Under the pieces are notes generated by a model. It searched no databases and was not told where the DNA came from. It saw only the letters and a list, made by a program, of their open reading frames with translations. Both the position numbers and the translations under genes were made by a program. This document shows, one piece after another, positions 139 to 43,604 of a DNA stretch of 47,000 bases (its first letter is position 1; every line of letters begins with the position of its first letter). The DNA comes from Nannochloropsis salina CCMP1776 (taxonomy: Eukaryota; Sar; Eustigmatophyceae; Eustigmatales; Monodopsidaceae), in assembly GCA_004565275.1 (NCBI GenBank), contig SDOX01000140.1, positions 1 to 47,000 of the forward strand. The letters are read 5' to 3'.

Positions 139-409
139 CAGTCTCTCTCTAAAGCATAGAGGGCCCCACTACCTTCATCTTGTCAGAGAGTCAGTGTGGC
201 CAAATAATTCGTCCGTAGTATCAAGTTTCCGTGAAAAGTGCTCGAAGGGTCCTTTTCCTGCATGCTCGTTGAAGAAAATTGAATCCTTCGTGATTGTGCC
301 TTCCTTTGAAGTCAATGATATCCTTTCAATACTTCAATTCTTCAAGTCTTTCTTTGAGGGATGTGAAAGGAGCTAGATCTCTTGTTCTCACCCAGTCACT
401 TGCGCATGC

Positions 410-2250
410 CTACCCAAAAGTCCAGATAGGGCCACCTTGCACGACGGCGGCAAGTTTCTGTCGATGATGGAATAGGGTAGTCCACCAGGAAGCGTCAGAT
501 CGAGTAGGATATCGCGATTCTGGACGAGGCATGCCAATACGATGGGACCACTGTGAAAGACAGGGATATGTTCAACCTTGTGGAATCTTCTGCATTTACA
601 CACTTACCGTGCCATTCGATGACGACGCGATGGAGAACCAGTTACCTGTGCCAGGGGCGACTTGCTCCGTCCAGGTGACACCCGTGTCGGTGGACCTCCA
701 GATAGACCCTTGATTCACCACGGCGGCAAGGATCTTTGCATTATGCGAGGGGTAATGGAGGAGGATGCGTCAGATCAAGCATCGCATCGCGACCCTCAAC
801 GAGACATCCGCGCAGGATGGGATTGCCTTCGTCGACAGGGTCATCATGCACCTTGTGAAATGCCCTGCATGGAAAGACGTACCATGCCGTCCGATGAGGA
901 CGCGATCGAGTACCAGTCACGTGAGCCAGAGCTGGTTCGTTCCGTCCAGCTGACGCCTGCGTCGGCTGAAGTCCAGATGGACTCTGCAAGCACCGCGGCG
1001 GCAAGGTTCTGTGCATGATGGGATTGGTAGTCGATCAGCATGCGTCAGATCGAACATCACATGGAGACCGCGGACGAGACATGCACACACGAAAGAATCA
1101 TTTTGGTCGACAGCTTTATCAGGCACCCTGTGAAATAGCCTGCATCCAAACACGTACCAGGCCATCCGACGAGGACGCGATCGAGTACCAGTCACGTGGA
1201 GCCTCGTCTAATCGCTCCGTCCAGGTGGAGCCCGTGTCGGTTGATGTCCAGATCGAGCCACCATAAACCACGGCGGCAAGCTTCTGTGCATGATGGGATG
1301 GGTAGTCGACCAGGATGCGTCAGATCGAGCATCACATGGCGACTTTGGACGAGAAATGCTCACACGACGGAATCATTACCGTCGACAGGTTTATCATGGA
1401 TCTTGTGAAATTGCCTGCATCGAAACACCTACCGTGCCATCGGACGAGGACGCGACTGAGTTCCAGTTTCGGCTTGATGCTACTCCCGCCCACGAGACGC
1501 CCGCGTCGCTCGACCTCGAGAGTTGTCCACCATAGATCGCGGCGACGAGTTTCTGTGCATGATAGGATGGATAGTTGACCAGAAAGCGTCAGATCGAGCA
1601 TCGCATCGCGACCCTCGACGAGGTATCTACACACGATGGGAGCACCATTGTCGACAGGGTCGTCATGCAGCTTGCGAAATGGCCTGCATTGAAAGACGTA
1701 CCATGCCATCCGACGACGACGCGATCGAGTACCAGTTACGGGTACCAGCGGTGTCTCGCTCTGTCCAGCTGACGCCCGCGTCGGTCGACGTCCAGATCGA
1801 GCCGTTATATACCACGGCGGCAAGTTTCTGTGCATGATGCATTGGGGAGCCGATTAGAAAGCGTCAGATTAAGCATCGCATCGCGACCCTCGATGAGACA
1901 TGCACACACGATAAGACCAGCATTGAAGACAGGGTTATTATGCAGCTTGCGAAATGGCCTGCATCGAAAGACGTACCATGCCATCCGACGAGGACACGAT
2001 CGAGTTTCAGTCACGGGTACCAGCGGTGTCTCGCTCCGTCCAGCTGACGCCCGCGTCGGTCGACGTCCAGATCACGCCTCCATAGACCGTGGCGGCAAGT
2101 TTCTGTGTATGATGCATTGTGGAGCCGACTAGAAAGCGTCAGATCGAGCATCGCATCGCGACCCTGGACGAGACATGCACACACGATAAGACCAGCATTG
2201 AAGACAGGGACATGGTGCACCATGTGTAATTTTCGGCATCGAATACGTAC
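410..2250 (-). repeat. 275-bp tandem exon+intron cassettes
   Basis: A conserved landmark (gcgtcagat) occurs at 492, 767, 1042, 1317, 1586, 1861 and 2136: spacing 275 bp five times and 269 once. Each unit is a 126-bp exon (120 in the 1433-1552 copy) plus an intron of 148-150 bp. Introns resemble one another as clearly as the exons do, so the duplicated unit is exon plus intron. The most telomeric unit is internally shortened. Because 275 is not a multiple of three, unspliced reading breaks in every unit, which hides the gene from simple ORF searches. Confidence 0.9.
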
Positions 2251-3453
2251 TGTGCCATCCGACGAGGACGCGATCGAGTCCCAGCCACGGGTACCAGCGG
2301 TGGATTGCTGCGTCCAGGTGGCGGTTGGTGCCGTAGGTTGCGCCGTTGGCGTCATGGTCGGAGACGCCGTAGGCTGCATCGTAGGCGCCATGGTCGGAGA
2401 CGCCGTAGGCTGCATCGTAGGCGCCATGGTCGGAGACGCCGTAGGCTGCATCGTAGGCGCCATGGTCGGAGCCGCCGTGGGCTGCATGGTCGGAGCCGCC
2501 GTGGGCTGCATGGTCGGAGCCGCCGTGGGCTGCATCGTCGGAGCCGCAGTGGGCTGCATCGTCGGTTGCAGTGTCTTTGCCACGACTACCTCATACACAC
2601 TGGAATCAGGATCGAATATGAAGGGTGTGCATACCGCCACGCAGCAAAAGCACTGGTTGGTCGCGGTATTCCAGCTGAAGAAGAAAGGCGTCTCTTCTCC
2701 GGCATTGAGAGAGCAATATTCATAACAAGCATTGGCGGTATCGATTGACTGGAGCTGTCGGTCTTGAGGATGGCTGAGGGCTGCGATATCCTTATGCATG
2801 TCAATTGGAGAGGGCACCGAAAGACGACGGTCTTGGAAGGGGGCCTGGCGCGCTCCTTGAGAGAATTGCTGTCCCTCACCAAAAAGTACAAATGGCTGCG
2901 CGGGATTGATGGTAGGAGCTGGAGACGGCGCACACGTCGCGGTTTTTTTAGACTTCGAGTAGCGCACCTTTACGATTTGGGAGTGGGCGAGCGGCGTAAT
3001 GCACGACGCCCCAGTACCATTTACTGCATAAGCGAAGGCATCTACCTCCAACATCTCAGGGGCACACTCATCAGCTTTTACCTTGACGCGGAAGCGGTGT
3101 TTTCCCCCTTTACGTTTTGTGAGTGCAATGTTGAGCCAGTAGATCACAGTCGTTCCATCTGCATTCTCAACGCTGTTCGGGGATGTATAGGGCTTTGGGG
3201 ACGGACGCATCGCTGTTCGCTCTACCGACAAGCCCTTGGGGATATTCAATTGAAACTCGAGATTGTCGACGGGGCCTTTGCTAGTCAAGGTCACGGCTAT
3301 CTTGGCGTGACCCTTCCCTGCAAGGATCCCACGTCTAACGCTCGGTCTAACTTTGGCCTTGAGGAAGAGGCCTGGACAATCTTGAGAGACGGTTGTGAAA
3401 ATGCTTGCAAGCCCCAGTAGGGCGACAAGGAGAATGCCAAAGAGATGAATCAT
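410..3453 (-). CDS. Secreted Asp-box (BNR) repeat protein built from repeated exon cassettes
   Basis: Predicted exons on the minus strand: 2251-3453, 1977-2102, 1702-1827, 1433-1552, 1158-1283, 883-1008, 608-733 and 410-457; all junctions are phase 0 with GT-AG ends (donor mostly GTACGT). Exon 1 (401 codons) has a signal peptide (about residues 1-23), a DUF11-like beta-sandwich region (about 30-170), a Cys-rich segment (about 240-295), a PTMQPTA-type linker, and ends in SIASSSDGT. Each later full exon gives one 40-42 residue repeat: KLAA start, an Asp-box such as STDAGVSW, a Trp, then SIASSSDG. Asp-boxes are known from beta-propellers of sialidase-like and secreted proteins; the ligand here is unknown. 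Exon 2 has TGA (2007-2009) where the other repeats have TGG, giving a 432-residue product unless exon 2 is skipped. Exon 8 is short and ends at TAG 410-412, about 270 bases from the telomere. A continuous frame that reads on into intron 1 and stops at 2011 is not the true end. Confidence 0.72.
2313..2575 (-). repeat. Thr-Pro linker minisatellite inside exon 1
   Basis: In-frame coding minisatellite: 36-bp units followed by 24-bp units on the same theme. They translate on the minus strand to PTMQPTA, PTMAPTMQPTAS and similar. Such Thr/Pro-rich linkers are common in secreted stramenopile proteins and are probably heavily O-glycosylated (inference). The linker joins the N-terminal domains to the Asp-box exons. 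Confidence 0.85.
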
Positions 3454-5637: not shown

Positions 5638-5704
5638 TCGAGGTCAACTGAGCAGAAGTGCCCGATTCGAGGTCAACTGAGCAGGAGTGCCCGATTCGAG
5701 GTCA
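5638..5704. repeat. 29-bp direct repeat, two copies plus a partial
   Basis: The unit beginning TCGAGGTCAACTGAGCAG is repeated head to tail at 5638-5666 and 5667-5695, differing at one base, followed by a nine-base partial copy. No coding context was recognised. Confidence 0.85.
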
Positions 5705-6083
5705 AATCGAAAAGAGCTTAAGGTAGCTGTCCGGTACGAAGGCCGTAGCAAGTGATCTTTGTGGCAAGTATAATTCTTGGAGAACGCTTTGACAGCCACT
5801 ATAACTTTACTTTAGATTTTATTCTTTTTGACTTACGTACGTCTTTTTTACCCTTTATACGAAATTAAAATTTTCGTTATCCTGGAGTTCTACACACCTT
5901 CACGTCCATCTCGACAATACACTGCAACTGCCCTTAAAATAGCACGAGAATGAAGAGGACACTGTATCTCGTTTCAATTTCGCTTTAGTTTTGAGTTCTA
6001 CGTAATCAGCCCGCGGAAATCCTCTCATTGTTTTCCTATTGTTACTTTGCGGATGAGTATACATTTCCTTGTCTTATGTCTTC

Positions 6084-16237: not shown

Positions 16238-17671
16238 CTATAGCTTCTCCTGGATTGGCATTGGAGCTTGCACCAGTCCAATTGTACCGTCTGCAGCCAT
16301 ATCAAAATGTGGGAGTCTTATTCGCAAACCCAGGGTGCGCTTGATACTATGTCGAGGCTGGAAGCGCTCTGAATCGTGATACAGTGACATGGGGAATATC
16401 ACCACCGTACCCCGCGATGGTTTGACCACCAACGGACAGTGATTCTTCTCGAAATTGTTCTTGCTTTCCCAAAATCGAGTGCCTGCAACCTCATCCAAAA
16501 AGAGCAGCAATTTATGTGTCTCTCCGCCTTTGATGGCGTCAAAATGCGGATTTACCTCCACATTCTCTTCAGAAAAGGTGACGTAGTTTTCAAAGTGCAC
16601 ATCAGAAATCGGTAAAATGTCTTTGATAAGTCCGTGGAGCGGACTTGCTTCTGTTGCCTCCAGTATCATCCGTTGTTCGCTGTGCTCATGCACCAAATCG
16701 GATAAAAAAGATTCCATGACGCTCACTTGTGCATCAGAGAGGAGGCGAGGGAACACCAAAATTTCCCCCCTTCTATCGTCAAATAACTCAAGCTTTGATT
16801 CCTTACTCTCTTTGTCCTCCCAAACTTCCCGTGGAAGGATGTCGTCTAAAAGTCGGTCACCTCCCTCCTTTGACTTGCAAACACAGCCAGCACGCTGGTC
16901 GAATCCACAACCCAAACAAGATTGACCTGCTGTTTGGCAGTGATGTAAGCATTTCTCCACTGCGGCGAGTCTTGATGACACTCGTTTGCATTGCTCAAAA
17001 GCCTGATGACTTGAGCCTAAAGATCGTGCGGGACTACTTCCGAATTTCTTTGCCCGCTGCTCGTTAAGGAGCTCTTGCGTGATCTTCGGGCGTTTTGTGA
17101 ATGAAATGGTTGACTCAACAGTGTCGTGTGTCTCCCCACTGTCCACAATATCGGCCATGCCCTGGACGTCAATTGGACTGGTCTCAGATATTGACTTGAT
17201 CCTGATATCCACATTAAAGACTCGCGATTGCCCAGGTGCTATTGCCACCTCCGGCCATCTGACCACGAAAGCGCTATCCGTATCAATATATGTGGTTTCT
17301 TGTCTAGCAGAGTTCTCTTGTGGTGGAAATACACTTGATTCGAGATATGTTGTACGATCGACCGGCAAGCGCACCTTAAAATCTACGGCTCCGTGTCTTT
17401 CACCTGCGTTTTGCAGTGTAAACCAACAAGGTACTATGTCTCCCGCTGATATCTGTTTTTCATTCATTGATGATAAGATTTGTATTCTTGGAGAAAGATG
17501 TTTGGTTGCTAAAGCCTGAATACTTTCCGAAACATTATCCTCCTTCGAGCCGCTACTGCCTTTCTGTTTGAGAATAAGCAAGGAGACAAGCAAAAGCGAG
17601 GTCCTTAGAAGTCGCAGCAATGGTCTCCTCTTTCGTCGAAAATATATCCATGTCCTTTTGAACAGAATCAT
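16238..17671 (-). CDS. Membrane-anchored 2-oxoglutarate/Fe(II) oxygenase, prolyl-4-hydroxylase type
   Basis: Single uninterrupted frame of 477 residues. An Arg/Lys-rich start followed by a hydrophobic stretch (about 17-34) indicates a type II anchor, so the enzyme probably faces the ER/Golgi lumen. Residues about 60-195 resemble a DUF11-like beta-sandwich; about 225-275 is Cys-rich (CLHHC...CLGCGFD...CVC), WSC/PAN-like. The C-terminal third matches the P4H-type oxygenase core: HFD (H376, D378) and a distal His in YHDSERF (H432) as the iron triad, with K444/R445 as the 2-oxoglutarate salt-bridge candidates. Family members hydroxylate peptidyl proline or related residues; the substrate is unknown, but Pro-rich secreted proteins occur nearby. 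The first two domains repeat the plan of exon 1 of the telomere-adjacent gene. Confidence 0.85.
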   Translation of the reverse strand: MILFKRTWIYFRRKRRPLLRLLRTSLLLVSLLILKQKGSSGSKEDNVSESIQALATKHLSPRIQILSSMNEKQISAGDIVPCWFTLQNAGERHGAVDFKVRLPVDRTTYLESSVFPPQENSARQETTYIDTDSAFVVRWPEVAIAPGQSRVFNVDIRIKSISETSPIDVQGMADIVDSGETHDTVESTISFTKRPKITQELLNEQRAKKFGSSPARSLGSSHQAFEQCKRVSSRLAAVEKCLHHCQTAGQSCLGCGFDQRAGCVCKSKEGGDRLLDDILPREVWEDKESKESKLELFDDRRGEILVFPRLLSDAQVSVMESFLSDLVHEHSEQRMILEATEASPLHGLIKDILPISDVHFENYVTFSEENVEVNPHFDAIKGGETHKLLLFLDEVAGTRFWESKNNFEKNHCPLVVKPSRGTVVIFPMSLYHDSERFQPRHSIKRTLGLRIRLPHFDMAADGTIGLVQAPMPIQEKL

Positions 17672-18057
17672 GTGGAGAATATCCTATACTTTTAAAGATA
17701 GAAAAGGTTGGTTGCAAGCTTATTATAAGTTCTATGTCATTGCCATATGATGCATTTTAAACCCTCAGAAACGGCTCGTTGTCAGTTAATCAAAGCTAAC
17801 GGCAATATGTCGGGGCACGCGCCCAGCACAAGCCCTCTAACGAAAATCATCAAATATGTTAGATATTTCAATGCTGTCCATGAATCATGTATTTGATTTT
17901 GTTTTTGAGAATCTAATTTCTGTATCAAGATGATTTCTCTTTTCTTCTCTTTGACTTGTACTTCGTCGTTTGCGGCCCATTTCCCTACTCTCTCTGACTT
18001 ACCCTCGTGGAAATAGGGCTCCCGCTTAACCCATTAATCAATATCAGTGCAAATACT
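17672..18057. other. Divergent intergenic region
   Basis: AT-rich spacer between the start of the oxygenase gene (minus) and paralogue B (plus); it probably holds both promoters. No coding exon recognised. Confidence 0.55.
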
Positions 18058-40322: not shown

Positions 40323-42248
40323 TTAATTCTCATCCCCCGCACCGCTTTCCTCGGATTTCATCTCGGTTACCGGAGGCCAGAAGTCGAAGGGATCGATGTC
40401 ATCTGCAACCAAGGTAGACGGAATGCCCGACCAGCCGGAGGACGGACGTCCGCTTACCGACGAGGGAGCAGAGGGGCGGGACGGAGGGCGGGTGTAGGAG
40501 GTGGGGGGTCGGGGACGGGAAGAAGGAGGGCGAGGGCGGTTGGAGGGAATGCTGGAGGGGACAGAGGAAGGAGGGCGAGGTGACGGAGGGCGGGGCCAGC
40601 TCGAGGGGTTGGAGGAAGGGGGGCGGGGCGACGGATTCGATGAGACGCCTGGAGATGGCGGGCGTGGGGAAGGAGGGCGAGGGGAAGGAGGGCGAGGGGA
40701 AGGAGGGCGAGGGGAAGGAGGGCGGGGCTGGCGGGTAGGACTGCGAGTAGGACGGCGCGTGGGGCTGCGAGTAGGACGGCGCGTGGGGCTGCGAGTAGGA
40801 CGGCGCGTGGGGCTGCGAGTAGGACGGCGCGTGGGGCTGCGAGTAGGACGGGATACAGGCCTGCGGGTAGGGCTGCGGGTAGGGCGGCTTGTAGGGCTGC
40901 GGGTAGGGCGGCGTGTGGGAGCGACCGGTCGGGGGGCGGGCGCAGGAGCTGGACCCGGGGCAGGGCCGCTCCCCGCATTGCGGGTTTTGATCCAGTTGTT
41001 GGTGCACTTGCCAACGGTGGCGGTCTGGAAGGCGCCAGTCTCGGGCATGTTGTAGGTAGACCCGCTCGAGGTGGTGGCGACGAAGTAGTAGCTCATGCAC
41101 CCGGCGCTGGAGCTCGGCTGGCTCTGCTCGTAAGCATAGAGGCCTTGAGCGCTGCTCCCTAGGTGGAGGGACATAGACTTGGCTTGACCGTTCACCACCA
41201 CCTCCATCTTTTTGGGGGCGGAGGAGCTTTTGAACGTGGCCAAGAACCGGAGCTTGCCACCGGTCTTGGCGGGGTGCAAGTAGTGCGTCCCGTCGTGGAG
41301 AGGGTTGTTCGTCGAGCCGGACAATTTCAAGAAATCCTGCGTCCAGAATCGGTCGTAGGCACCAGTACCTAGATGGGAGAAGTCCCCACTGAAGATGTTC
41401 GAGCAATGTGGACCCGAGGCGAGCCACTGGAGTACTGGGGCGCTCGGTTCCTCCTTCAAATTACGTTGTGTCATGGCAATGTTCTCGCCCATGCCCCGCC
41501 AATTCGACTCGTACTTGGATATGCGAGCATCCCAATTGCATTTGCCATCGTACAGCCTGCAGTACTTGTTGCAAGTATCGTGCTGAAAAGGACAGTCTGG
41601 ATCAGCCAGCATTTGACTTTCTTTTAAAGCAGCCTGCTGCGCATTAGCACTGTATCGAAGGGGAGGAAGGGTCCGAGTCGAGCACTTGTAGGTGCCTCCG
41701 TCGTTACCATTGTAGATGCGCTTGAAATCCTGGGGATCCATGCGAGCAGCATTAGTCAGCACTTGAGACGTGCGCTCGATGTAGGACATGTAATAATCTG
41801 TCCACTTATTGTTCGTGGCCGCAGGGCAGTAGTCTTTTCCCAATGTGAAGTAGCAACGAGGCCTGTCTTCGACCAAAGAATACCCCTTAGGAGAGTTCGC
41901 TCCGGTACCCTCCCTCAGCATGGTACGATTAGACTTCAGTTTTGAGTCATCTTCAATGGCGCGAAAAGCCGAGACCCCCCACGCCTCAGTGCCTGCGCCT
42001 TTGTAAATCAAAATTGGAGAGTCCGTATGTGCGGTGGTCCTGGCAATATCATCAAACAGAGCTGAAAATGCAAAGAGACTCCGGAAGACACGGGATATGA
42101 AAGTAGTAGGTGTGGAAGACTCCGGTAATGGAATGTTTTTTTCAGTCTGATGGGATGAGGCACGCTGTGGATTATCCTGACCTCGAGCAAAACTGACGGC
42201 GCAATATAATGCGATAGCGATTAAGGATGGAAAGCCAGTAATCTTCAT
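40323..42248 (-). CDS. Secreted CAP-superfamily protein with Arg/Pro/Ser/Thr repeats
   Basis: One frame of 641 residues. A signal peptide occupies about 1-23 (cleavage near SFARG). A CAP (SCP/PR-1) type domain lies at about 140-330, with PLRYSANAQQAAL, a Cys-rich insert, MGENIAMT and VLQWLASGPHC...NIFS...HLGTGAYDRFWTQDF, corresponding to the family's GENI, HxxN and YW-like blocks. A further beta-rich part (about 340-430) is followed by low-complexity repeats: RPTRSPTR units and then PRPPS units, resembling extensin-like cell-wall proteins and good substrates for prolyl hydroxylation and glycosylation. The last about 28 residues are acidic. A possible 55-base GT-AG intron near the 3' end would shift the frame and is not used. 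Role likely extracellular or wall-associated (inference). Confidence 0.85.
   Translation of the reverse strand: MKITGFPSLIAIALYCAVSFARGQDNPQRASSHQTEKNIPLPESSTPTTFISRVFRSLFAFSALFDDIARTTAHTDSPILIYKGAGTEAWGVSAFRAIEDDSKLKSNRTMLREGTGANSPKGYSLVEDRPRCYFTLGKDYCPAATNNKWTDYYMSYIERTSQVLTNAARMDPQDFKRIYNGNDGGTYKCSTRTLPPLRYSANAQQAALKESQMLADPDCPFQHDTCNKYCRLYDGKCNWDARISKYESNWRGMGENIAMTQRNLKEEPSAPVLQWLASGPHCSNIFSGDFSHLGTGAYDRFWTQDFLKLSGSTNNPLHDGTHYLHPAKTGGKLRFLATFKSSSAPKKMEVVVNGQAKSMSLHLGSSAQGLYAYEQSQPSSSAGCMSYYFVATTSSGSTYNMPETGAFQTATVGKCTNNWIKTRNAGSGPAPGPAPAPAPRPVAPTRRPTRSPTSRPTRSPTRRPVSRPTRSPTRRPTRSPTRRPTRSPTRRPTRSPTRRPTRSPTRQPRPPSPRPPSPRPPSPRPPSPRPPSPGVSSNPSPRPPSSNPSSWPRPPSPRPPSSVPSSIPSNRPRPPSSRPRPPTSYTRPPSRPSAPSSVSGRPSSGWSGIPSTLVADDIDPFDFWPPVTEMKSEESGAGDEN
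40666..40920 (-). repeat. Coding minisatellites in the CAP gene
   Basis: Two in-frame repeats sit side by side: 15-bp units encoding PRPPS (about 40666-40726) and 24-bp units encoding RPTRSPTR (about 40733-40920). Both keep the reading frame, so length changes would alter only linker length. Confidence 0.85.
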
Positions 42249-43604
42249 GTTTCCCTGTTTAAATAAGGAATTCGTAAGCGATCGCTCATTTTGTCGTGCA
42301 TTTCATTATAGTACAGTTCGGGGCATTGCACTGCCGCGGGATCGCTATACCCTTATAAAATATGGCTGTTTCATTGGTCCTGTCTCGCACACTACGACAG
42401 CATCTCATCCTTGAGATTGCCATATGTAGTTTGCTTTCTTATAATTCTGTATTCCTGGACTAATGAATCTTTGAGGCGCCAAAAAAAGCATCTCGGCAGA
42501 AAACCAGAAGTAACGGATACCCGTTTCAGAACGATTTTGAGAAACGGTCAGAAACGGCGGTACTACGCTCTTAAAATGTAGTCTTCGGATTCGCCAATGT
42601 ATTCGAGATCTGCTGGCGCGCATGCTGTTAGCATGAGCAGCCACGCCTTCCGGTATTGAAGATGAAAGTCGGAGGACGAAAGAAACGGGCCAATTTTAGC
42701 CACCCTGTCGCCTCATGTGCAAACCAATTTAAAAAGTTGAAGCAAAGTTCTCTTACTTTGTATGCATTGTGCAACATTGAAGTCATCAAGTTTTTTTTAA
42801 ATCTAAAGGTAATTATTTCAAATGCTGTTGCGAATTCCTATGATTTCGCTTTGGTACACTTGTCCAGCACAATATTGCTCTGTTTATTCCAGTTTATGCT
42901 TAAGGCGCTATGATTCTGAGGTCCGCCCATTTTAAACAGTACTTTGAGATGTAAGGATACACATTATTTAACAAATAAATATGGAGCAATATCAGGCTCC
43001 AATTGCACACATGGTAAATTTATGGCCTAAACACATCATTTCCCTCTAATGATACGAAACCGCGTTTTTTTTTCGTATTTTCCACCTCACCCTCTCTTTG
43101 TTGAAATCTGTTTATCCCTTTCTTCCTTCCACGTCTCCTATTATCACCTTAAAACCTTAAAACCTTTACAGCTTGATATTCACAATAAATCTGACAGCGG
43201 TGCAACAGAGATGTTTGAAAAAGTTTGAAATTAAAAAGTTGAATGGGAGAAGGAGCAGGACTTAATATTTTTGGTGGATGAAAAATAAGTATTAAAACAA
43301 CAACATATAGGACATTTATAAAATTTCTTTTGTTTCACTCAGCAACGTGCACCGCGGCTTCGTTAAAGTCCAACTTCCCGCAATGCCTTGTCTCTCTTTC
43401 CTCTTCCTCCTCTCTCGGGCCTTCACCGTCGCATAGCCGCAACACATTTTCCTCAGTGGTCGCCTCCTTCAAGCAGGGAGGTGACCAGTACCCTGACGCC
43501 AGGCTGTGATTCACCGTGGAGATTAAGAGGGATAAATGAGTGTCACGACAAATGCGAGAGTCTCGTGACGCATGCGAGCATTTCTCTCCCTGGGATCTGA
43601 ATCC
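42249..43604. other. AT-rich intergenic region, no gene recognised
   Basis: Spacer between the CAP start and the myotubularin stop, clearly AT-richer than the neighbouring genes. The Lys-rich frame at 42656-42913 has no homologous features. It probably contains the CAP promoter and the myotubularin 3' UTR. Confidence 0.55.
42353..42363 (-). promoter_or_regulatory. Possible TATA box of the CAP gene
   Basis: The minus strand reads ATATTTTATAA about 105-115 bases upstream of the start codon at 42248. Resemblance only. Confidence 0.3.

Follow-up and report, generated by a model that had tools for sequence, protein, structure and literature searches.

In our judgement, the array of exon and intron cassettes that lies beside the telomere at the start of contig C26 quite probably forms the 3' module of a gene from a large family of this photosynthetic alga, a family that would be subtelomeric, point toward the chromosome ends and swap its modules. 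The members found at the ends share an N-terminal domain of about 294 amino acids (N-domain) and a PT-rich linker, and several of them also have near-identical upstream DNA. As in a subtelomeric variable gene family, many paralogues are found at chromosome ends together with exchange between these ends. The window, that is the whole analysed stretch of 47,000 nucleotides, is the start of C26 in an assembly of 26.5 Mb in 103 contigs, in which runs of N are present. The genome encodes light-harvesting proteins, one of which is nearest to diatom-type fucoxanthin proteins.

The terminal gene of the window and its cassettes

The window begins with a telomere of 23 copies of CCCTAA (1 to 139), determined by a tandem-repeat scan; other contigs carry the motif at or close to their ends as well. 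TTAGGG is the telomere motif of eustigmatophytes (PMC8570151), which together with the light-harvesting proteins makes Nannochloropsis or Microchloropsis a likely, though not proven, source. The terminal gene is encoded on the minus strand and its stop (410) lies 271 bp from the end of the telomere repeat (139). According to the open reading frame and the splice reading, exon 1 (2251 to 3453) comprises a signal-peptide-like N-terminus (judged by eye), the shared N-domain (amino acids 1 to 294), the PT-rich linker, which matched PF04886 (PT) with 49.4 bits, and half an Asp-box repeat at its 3' end (2322 to 2251). It is followed by intron 1 of 148 nt (2103 to 2250, GTACGT..ACAG) and by six full cassette exons at 1977 to 2102, 1702 to 1827, 1433 to 1552, 1158 to 1283, 883 to 1008 and 608 to 733, each of 126 nt except for the third with 120 nt. 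Introns 2 to 6 comprise 149 nt each (1828 to 1976, 1553 to 1701, 1284 to 1432, 1009 to 1157 and 734 to 882), and intron 7 with 150 nt (458 to 607) leads to a short last exon of 48 nt including the TAG (410 to 457, KLAAVV..IWTFG). All seven introns are GT..AG and all junctions are phase 0. The start-to-start spacing of the cassettes is 275 or 269 bp and the array reached a TRF score of 1568. An Rfam search at the gathering threshold gave no match.

A sequence-only reading of this DNA had described six phase-0 exons of 120 to 126 bp with introns of 148 to 150 nt, a period of about 275 bp and a distance of about 270 bp to the telomere, and its coordinates and counts were correct. The common intron sequence that it had described was found as well, with the introns of the window 64 to 86% alike compared to 61 to 89% for the exons. 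Introns as alike as the exons indicate that the cassette was copied as a whole unit. The assignment of one Asp-box repeat to each exon extends to all five terminal arrays (C26, C23, C70 left, C78 left and C84), where S, G and W as well as D or N of the motif were present in 27 of 27 full exons. In a profile search for the suggested relation to the BNR families, the relative at C23 exceeded the cutoff of 27 (BNR 43.5, BNR_6 27.9) and the copy in the window stayed below it (BNR_6 21.1, BNR 10.5).

An array that adjoins the telomere, whose introns are no less alike than its exons and whose window copy carries a stop codon, could be regarded as a non-coding subtelomeric satellite of 275 bp with chance open stretches. 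Several observations speak against this. The claimed register is open in 26 of the 27 full exons of the five terminal arrays, which is the equal highest count; 11 of 552 combinations of offset and strand reach 26 open units, and all 11 lie in the claimed frame and strand. Full exons have a length of 126 nt (25 of 27) or 120 nt (2 of 27), and every one of the 27 is a multiple of three with phase 0 throughout, so that duplication as exon and intron units keeps the frame. In the five terminal arrays, each of the 31 introns has GT-AG borders and sits flush with the frame. When the relic arrays of C41 and C7 are added (seven arrays), 37 of 41 introns conform, the four exceptions being near-identical copies with one extra base in one inner relic of C41; the exon limits of both relics were set by the repeat instead of the splice site, and their lengths were excluded from the length count. 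The pN/pS of the Asp-box exons of the five arrays was 0.73 (mildly purifying), a value as low as which was obtained in 2 of 100 column shuffles, and that of the six exons of the window was 0.67, with 4 of 300 shuffles as low. Moreover, the Asp-box residues are invariant, and a bacterial protein matches across the exon junction.

This protein (L083), from a Spirochaetes MAG, is the best prokaryote match. It has the same repeat consensus and register as the algal repeat, but in contrast to the present genes it is bacterial, with continuous units and no introns: its sequence ..SSSDGTKLAAVV.. runs on at the site where the alga has its intron, and it reads SSSDGT-KLAAVV with no gap at the algal exon junction. 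Of all the sequence evidence for a removal of the 148 to 150 nt in the alga, this continuous reading is the strongest. Altogether, the open register, the consistent splice sites and the colinear bacterial relative led us to reject the satellite, the probability of which we regard as very low. In prokaryote genomes, 114 stretches with the same 42-amino-acid repeat were confirmed, of which 78 loci were kept (L083-L160), with identities of up to 66%. The carriers comprise Saccharibacteria and other Patescibacteria, Planctomycetota, Nitrospirae, Spirochaetes and others. The cassettes show how a repeat without interruptions in bacteria can be divided in an alga into exons of one repeat each. A lateral origin of the algal Asp-box module is possible.

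The stop codon mentioned above, an in-frame TGA at 2013 to 2011 in the first full exon, had been overlooked in the sequence-only reading and was flagged independently by the genome search. Of the 26 exons in the parsimony set, 24 have tryptophan at this position. Due to this codon the assembled window copy cannot give a full protein unless that exon is skipped, and the copy is probably a pseudogene or decaying member, or else the codon is an assembly error.

The last exon, previously regarded as a shortened unit, is the conserved gene end. The arrays at C23, C78, C84 and C7 close likewise with KLAA..IWTYA or IWTFG and a stop, which rules out that the last exon was shortened by telomere erosion. 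At C70 a diverged form of the short last exon was found, and the last exon of the C41 relic begins like the others but reads on without a stop there. A complementary half repeat ends exon 1 at C26, C23, C84 and C4, and also at C78, where it stands behind another N-domain; the terminal repeat piece of exon 1 at C70 is longer than half. Together, the half repeats of exon 1 and of the last exon form one whole repeat, and with the halves joined the totals would be seven repeats for the window gene, six for C23 and five for C84. Beta-propellers are closed by strands from both chain ends. By analogy, we infer that the Asp-box module would fold into a beta-propeller in which each exon gives one blade and the halves of the first and last exons close the ring.

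Divergence within the five arrays was lower than between them, both for introns (0.207 vs 0.270) and for exons (0.220 vs 0.264), and the similarity of these values for exons and introns indicates that both were copied together. The number of full cassettes is four at C84, five at C23 and six at C26, C70 and C78. In a tree of 36 cassettes from the seven arrays, 11 changes of array label were needed compared to 25 after shuffling, and none of 200 shuffles was as low. The six cassettes of C78 form one clade (100/98). Those of the window do not form one cluster (4 changes) and those of C70 are scattered too (3 changes), because the cassettes of these two arrays intermix. The 120-nt unit of the window (1433 to 1552) and that of the C70 left end are sisters (98/88), which points to a common ancestral order followed by separate expansion. 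The proposal that unequal exchange alters the unit number therefore agrees with the range of four to six full cassettes and with the clustering by array, both of which concern paralogues, and unequal exchange within paralogous arrays is supported by these data. Unit number may vary within the species as well.

Selection on the Asp-box exons was determined by parsimony on an intron-only tree with 26 units, resulting in a dN/dS of 0.63. None of the codons showed a significant nonsynonymous excess in this count. Since the hypervariable codons were also raised in synonymous change, positive selection on these exons was rejected and is not claimed.

Gene family at the contig ends and probable exchange of its modules

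A search of the genome with the N-domain gave 66 rows, from which 52 loci were counted; the 14 rows left out are 13 extra fragments of counted loci and one weak row at C37:698. The outermost 10 kb of the contigs, which make up at most 7.8% of the genome, contain 32 of these loci, and 31 of the 32 read toward the end (28 different ends, p=1.5e-8). Each of the 18 strongest rows is stop-free, lies within 5.2 kb of an end and points to it. Farther in, 9 of 13 loci (10 to 30 kb) and 2 of 7 beyond read toward the end, a bias that is not significant. Altogether, ten of the 52 loci face away from the nearer end, and for nine of these ten the distance to an end exceeds 10 kb. Not all contig ends are proven telomeres: for the strongest rows, telomere repeats were found at or near 11 of 18 ends and were absent from six, the right end of C78 being outside this comparison.

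In an alignment of 21 N-domains, 59 columns are invariant, and ten of these are cysteine. No weighty match to the N-domain was found in Pfam, NCBIfam or PDB, and neither the N-domain nor the second cassette repeat described below had a relative in scans of viral contigs. At C57 and C62 the frame changes in the linker, which shows that not every terminal copy is intact. Based on the signal peptide, judged by eye, the products of the family are presumably secreted; they may have a role in adhesion or recognition.

Behind the N-domain and the linker, modules of different kinds were observed. Asp-box cassettes follow the PT linker at C26, C23, C70, C84 and C4. A second cassette repeat (TSPGIVVKVNLTDFSRV..SVVSGDFAYFG), also with one exon each, occurs at C17, C64, C33, C7, C41 and C78:886k. 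Intronless SBBP beta-propeller repeats of about 61 amino acids stand behind the shared N-domain at the right end of C78 (C78:891663-894354, L046), C87, C25 and C57 (frame broken), with a Pfam SBBP score of 63.5 bits in C87 (cutoff 20.5). Finally, collagen-like GXY repeats were seen once, at C37:3671-6080 (L054), where they are fused to the N-domain and followed toward the telomere by second-type cassettes; the Pfam Collagen score was 204.9 bits (cutoff 27.2). At the left end of C78 an Asp-box array (C78:2581-3258, L047) is joined to a different signal-peptide domain, which indicates that the Asp-box module changes partners on its 5' side too. A second, diverged copy of that signal-peptide domain apparently lies just upstream (by eye).

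The exchange of modules becomes visible in pairwise comparisons (matches of 88% or more). Between C17 and the right end of C78 the identity amounts to 98.7% along 2027 bp, starting 695 bp upstream of the start codon and extending to +1331 at the linker end, after which the second repeat stands against SBBP repeats. C4 and C7 match along 2172 bp with an identity of 93.4% and then carry Asp-box and second repeat, respectively. For C64 and C87 an identity of 95.2% extends to +1187, again followed by second repeat vs SBBP. Judged by these alignments, modules have evidently been exchanged between chromosome ends, with the homology breaking at the linker.

Misassembly at the repetitive PT linker would produce the same picture. 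The linkers are tandem repeats, in which misjoins are expected, so that any single swap could be an artefact; some contigs contain runs of N, and if the assembly is the same as the published N. salina assembly, Illumina and 454 reads were used (PMC6953503). However, a switch of module was observed in several pairs that differ in their divergence (98.7, 95.2 and 93.4%), which makes a misjoin unlikely as a general explanation. Furthermore, three of the four kinds of module recur on several separate contigs with the same N-domain in front of them, the collagen-like kind (C37) having been seen once. We therefore consider misassembly as the origin of the swaps to be unlikely.

Another explanation would be an ordinary tandem exon duplication in a housekeeping beta-propeller, with an incidental position at the telomere. 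Photosynthetic organisms do have Asp-box propellers, YCF48-like ones among them, and a weak similarity to YCF48 was found. An assignment to YCF48/PSII_BNR was rejected, as PF14870 reached 9.7 in the window and 19 in C23 against a cutoff of 27, and NF010237 reached 21.4 in C23, far below its cutoff of 326. In addition, the strong direction of the N-domain loci near the ends toward the telomere and the occupation of the same position by dissimilar modules do not fit a housekeeping propeller, which makes this explanation very improbable.

For the family with exchangeable modules, the arrangement itself offers a possible mechanism. As the linker separates the N-domain from a 3' half on its distal side, an exchange that starts in the linker or in the N-domain, either by break-induced replication or by ectopic crossover, would transfer everything out to the telomere. 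Such an exchange would put a new module behind the old secretion domain, and unequal exchange could then alter the number of blades. The proteins of the family would bind something outside the cell.

Second cassette repeat, possible older ends and possible roles

Second-type arrays were counted by fixed splice-site patterns at the contig ends of C17 (L045), C64 (L044), C33 (L052), C7 (L051), C49 (L081) and C31 (L082); diverged arrays at C41, C37, C78, C1, C44, C46, C69 and C75 are left out of this count, and the splice-site pattern detected no second-type cassette at C62. A search for second-type exons listed at least 104 matches. All 39 exons of the six arrays comprise 132 nt, are stop-free and have phase 2, and 42 of the introns have a length of 88 nt and two of 87 nt.

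The exons of the second repeat showed a higher mean column diversity than the introns (0.157 compared to 0.100), and 12 of 132 exon columns vs 1 of 88 intron columns exceeded a diversity of 0.5 (p=0.017). The variation is found chiefly at codons 2, 4, 23, 29, 30 and 32, and six codons showed no variation at any position. Invariant columns were about equally common in exons (50/132) and introns (37/88), and the overall pN/pS of the first 17 exons was 1.00, so that the result has to be read as a positional pattern and not as proof of positive selection. Nonetheless, this focused codon diversity is of the kind seen in recognition surfaces, and it is the main reason why the idea of recognition is kept.

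Structural proteins of the cell wall or matrix, whose repeats vary neutrally and have no recognition role, would also account for much of these data. Collagen-like and PT repeats fit a matrix protein. The Asp-box exons showed no significant sign of positive selection, and both the pN/pS of 1.00 and the similar shares of invariant columns in the second repeat point in the same direction. On the other hand, exons that are more diverse than their introns, with the diversity concentrated at few codons, speak against it. A matrix role is quite conceivable, though not the reading that we would choose.

Apart from the terminal genes, possible relics of older ends were observed. Inner second copies are broken by stops or split frames at C84, C70 and C41, and at C78:885792 an inner copy has an open frame. 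The telomere-adjacent stretch of the window (142 to 341) recurs with 73% identity inside C41 (7125-7322), near an Asp-box relic and beneath the newer terminal gene. The region C41:7125-9389 (L040) comprises this recurring stretch and the relic Asp-box array, which has four near-identical cassettes with one extra base, and three TTAGGG units in reverse orientation were seen near it at 5854-5871. It is possible that C41:7125-9389 is a buried former chromosome end. At C7, an Asp-box relic array without N-domain and with one frameshifted exon was noticed at about 125100-126500 (L051); two interstitial CCCTAA units, CCCTAACCCTAACCC, lie near this array. These relics suggest that existing ends become covered by newly added ones and then decay.

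Combining these observations, we tentatively propose, as a possibility that is open to considerable doubt, that the ends of this alga could act as a generator of diversity in secreted recognition proteins. A constant N-domain would be kept on the proximal side and swapped cassette modules on the distal side, with the blade number changed by unequal exchange or splicing and, in the second repeat, with a few hypervariable codons within DNA that is otherwise almost the same on different chromosomes, while old ends would be overgrown and decay inward. Such proteins might serve the contact with bacteria, viruses or kin, following a logic like that of the variant surface genes of parasites. Fast-evolving telomere genes are best known from host-evading parasites and pathogenic yeasts. 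A comparable layout in a free-living and probably harmless oil alga would suggest that diversity generators at chromosome ends serve ordinary ecology (bacteria, viruses) as well. The geometric rule of a constant proximal half and a variable distal half could be applied to any genome with finished ends. For N. gaditana CCMP1894, 30 chromosomal scaffolds are reported, 23 with both telomeres and no gaps (PMC5814478).

Relation to known systems and further loci

In brown algae, each leucine-rich repeat of the ROCO genes is one exon of 72 bp and phase 2, and the number of repeats varies (PMC11378527). The present genes resemble these ROCO and NB-TPR genes, likewise from stramenopile algae, in having one repeat per exon with a fixed length and phase and a variable number (PMC11378527), the Asp-box exons comprising 126 or 120 nt with phase 0 and the second-type exons 132 nt with phase 2. 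In contrast to the present family, ROCO proteins are GTPases without the N-domain and its signal peptide (PMC11378527), and the cassettes of phase 0 or 2 with introns that are alike, the direction toward the telomere and the exchange of whole modules distinguish the present family from them.

With the TLO genes of Candida albicans the family shares the ultimate or penultimate position at the ends, a conserved N-terminus, differing 3' ends and the movement of copies between arms (PMC9713401). However, TLO proteins carry the MED2 Mediator domain (PMC9713401), whereas the present proteins carry unrelated repeat modules and no MED2 match, this domain being absent among the five Pfam matches of the window protein at E<=1. 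The telomeric FLO/FAS adhesins of yeasts are likewise repeat-rich proteins with a signal peptide and many telomeric paralogues (PMC6277891). Unlike these adhesins, with a PA14 N-domain, repeats in the middle of the protein and a GPI C-terminus (PMC6277891), the present family showed no such domain and has an exchangeable C-terminal module as well as introns.

The Asp-box S/T-x-D/N-x-G-x-T/S-W is known from sortilin, sialidases and YCF48 (PMC2716378) and occurs here once per about 42 residues. In contrast to those propellers (PMC2716378), the present family has one exon per repeat and a repeat number that varies between paralogues, and no enzyme domain was found in it. A module-swapping family of the present type at telomere ends was not found among the best-ranked papers of the mostly open-access literature searched. 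The one paper there that mentions both eustigmatophytes and subtelomeres deals, by its title, with RABL2, and the main text of the N. oceanica genome paper does not mention telomeres. One repeat per exon, families at telomere ends and telomeric adhesins are each known, and their combination appears new within that literature.

Some further loci were noticed. An internal, diverged N-domain lies at C2:86204-87230 (L058), and its tail resembles, by eye, the start of a class-3 lipase. In the window, an open reading frame on the minus strand at 16238-17683 runs toward the telomere and comprises Ig-like and Cys-rich parts (by eye); it gave a weak match to 2OG-Fe(II) oxygenase below the cutoff. Its assignment by eye as a distant relative of the N-domain was rejected, since the profile comparison gave a probability of 0.5%. 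A CAP-domain protein (PF00188, 26.3 bits, cutoff 21.1) with a repetitive tail rich in Pro, Arg, Thr and Ser is encoded at 40326-42302 on the minus strand, and a 29-bp tandem repeat with 2.3 copies was found at 5638-5705.
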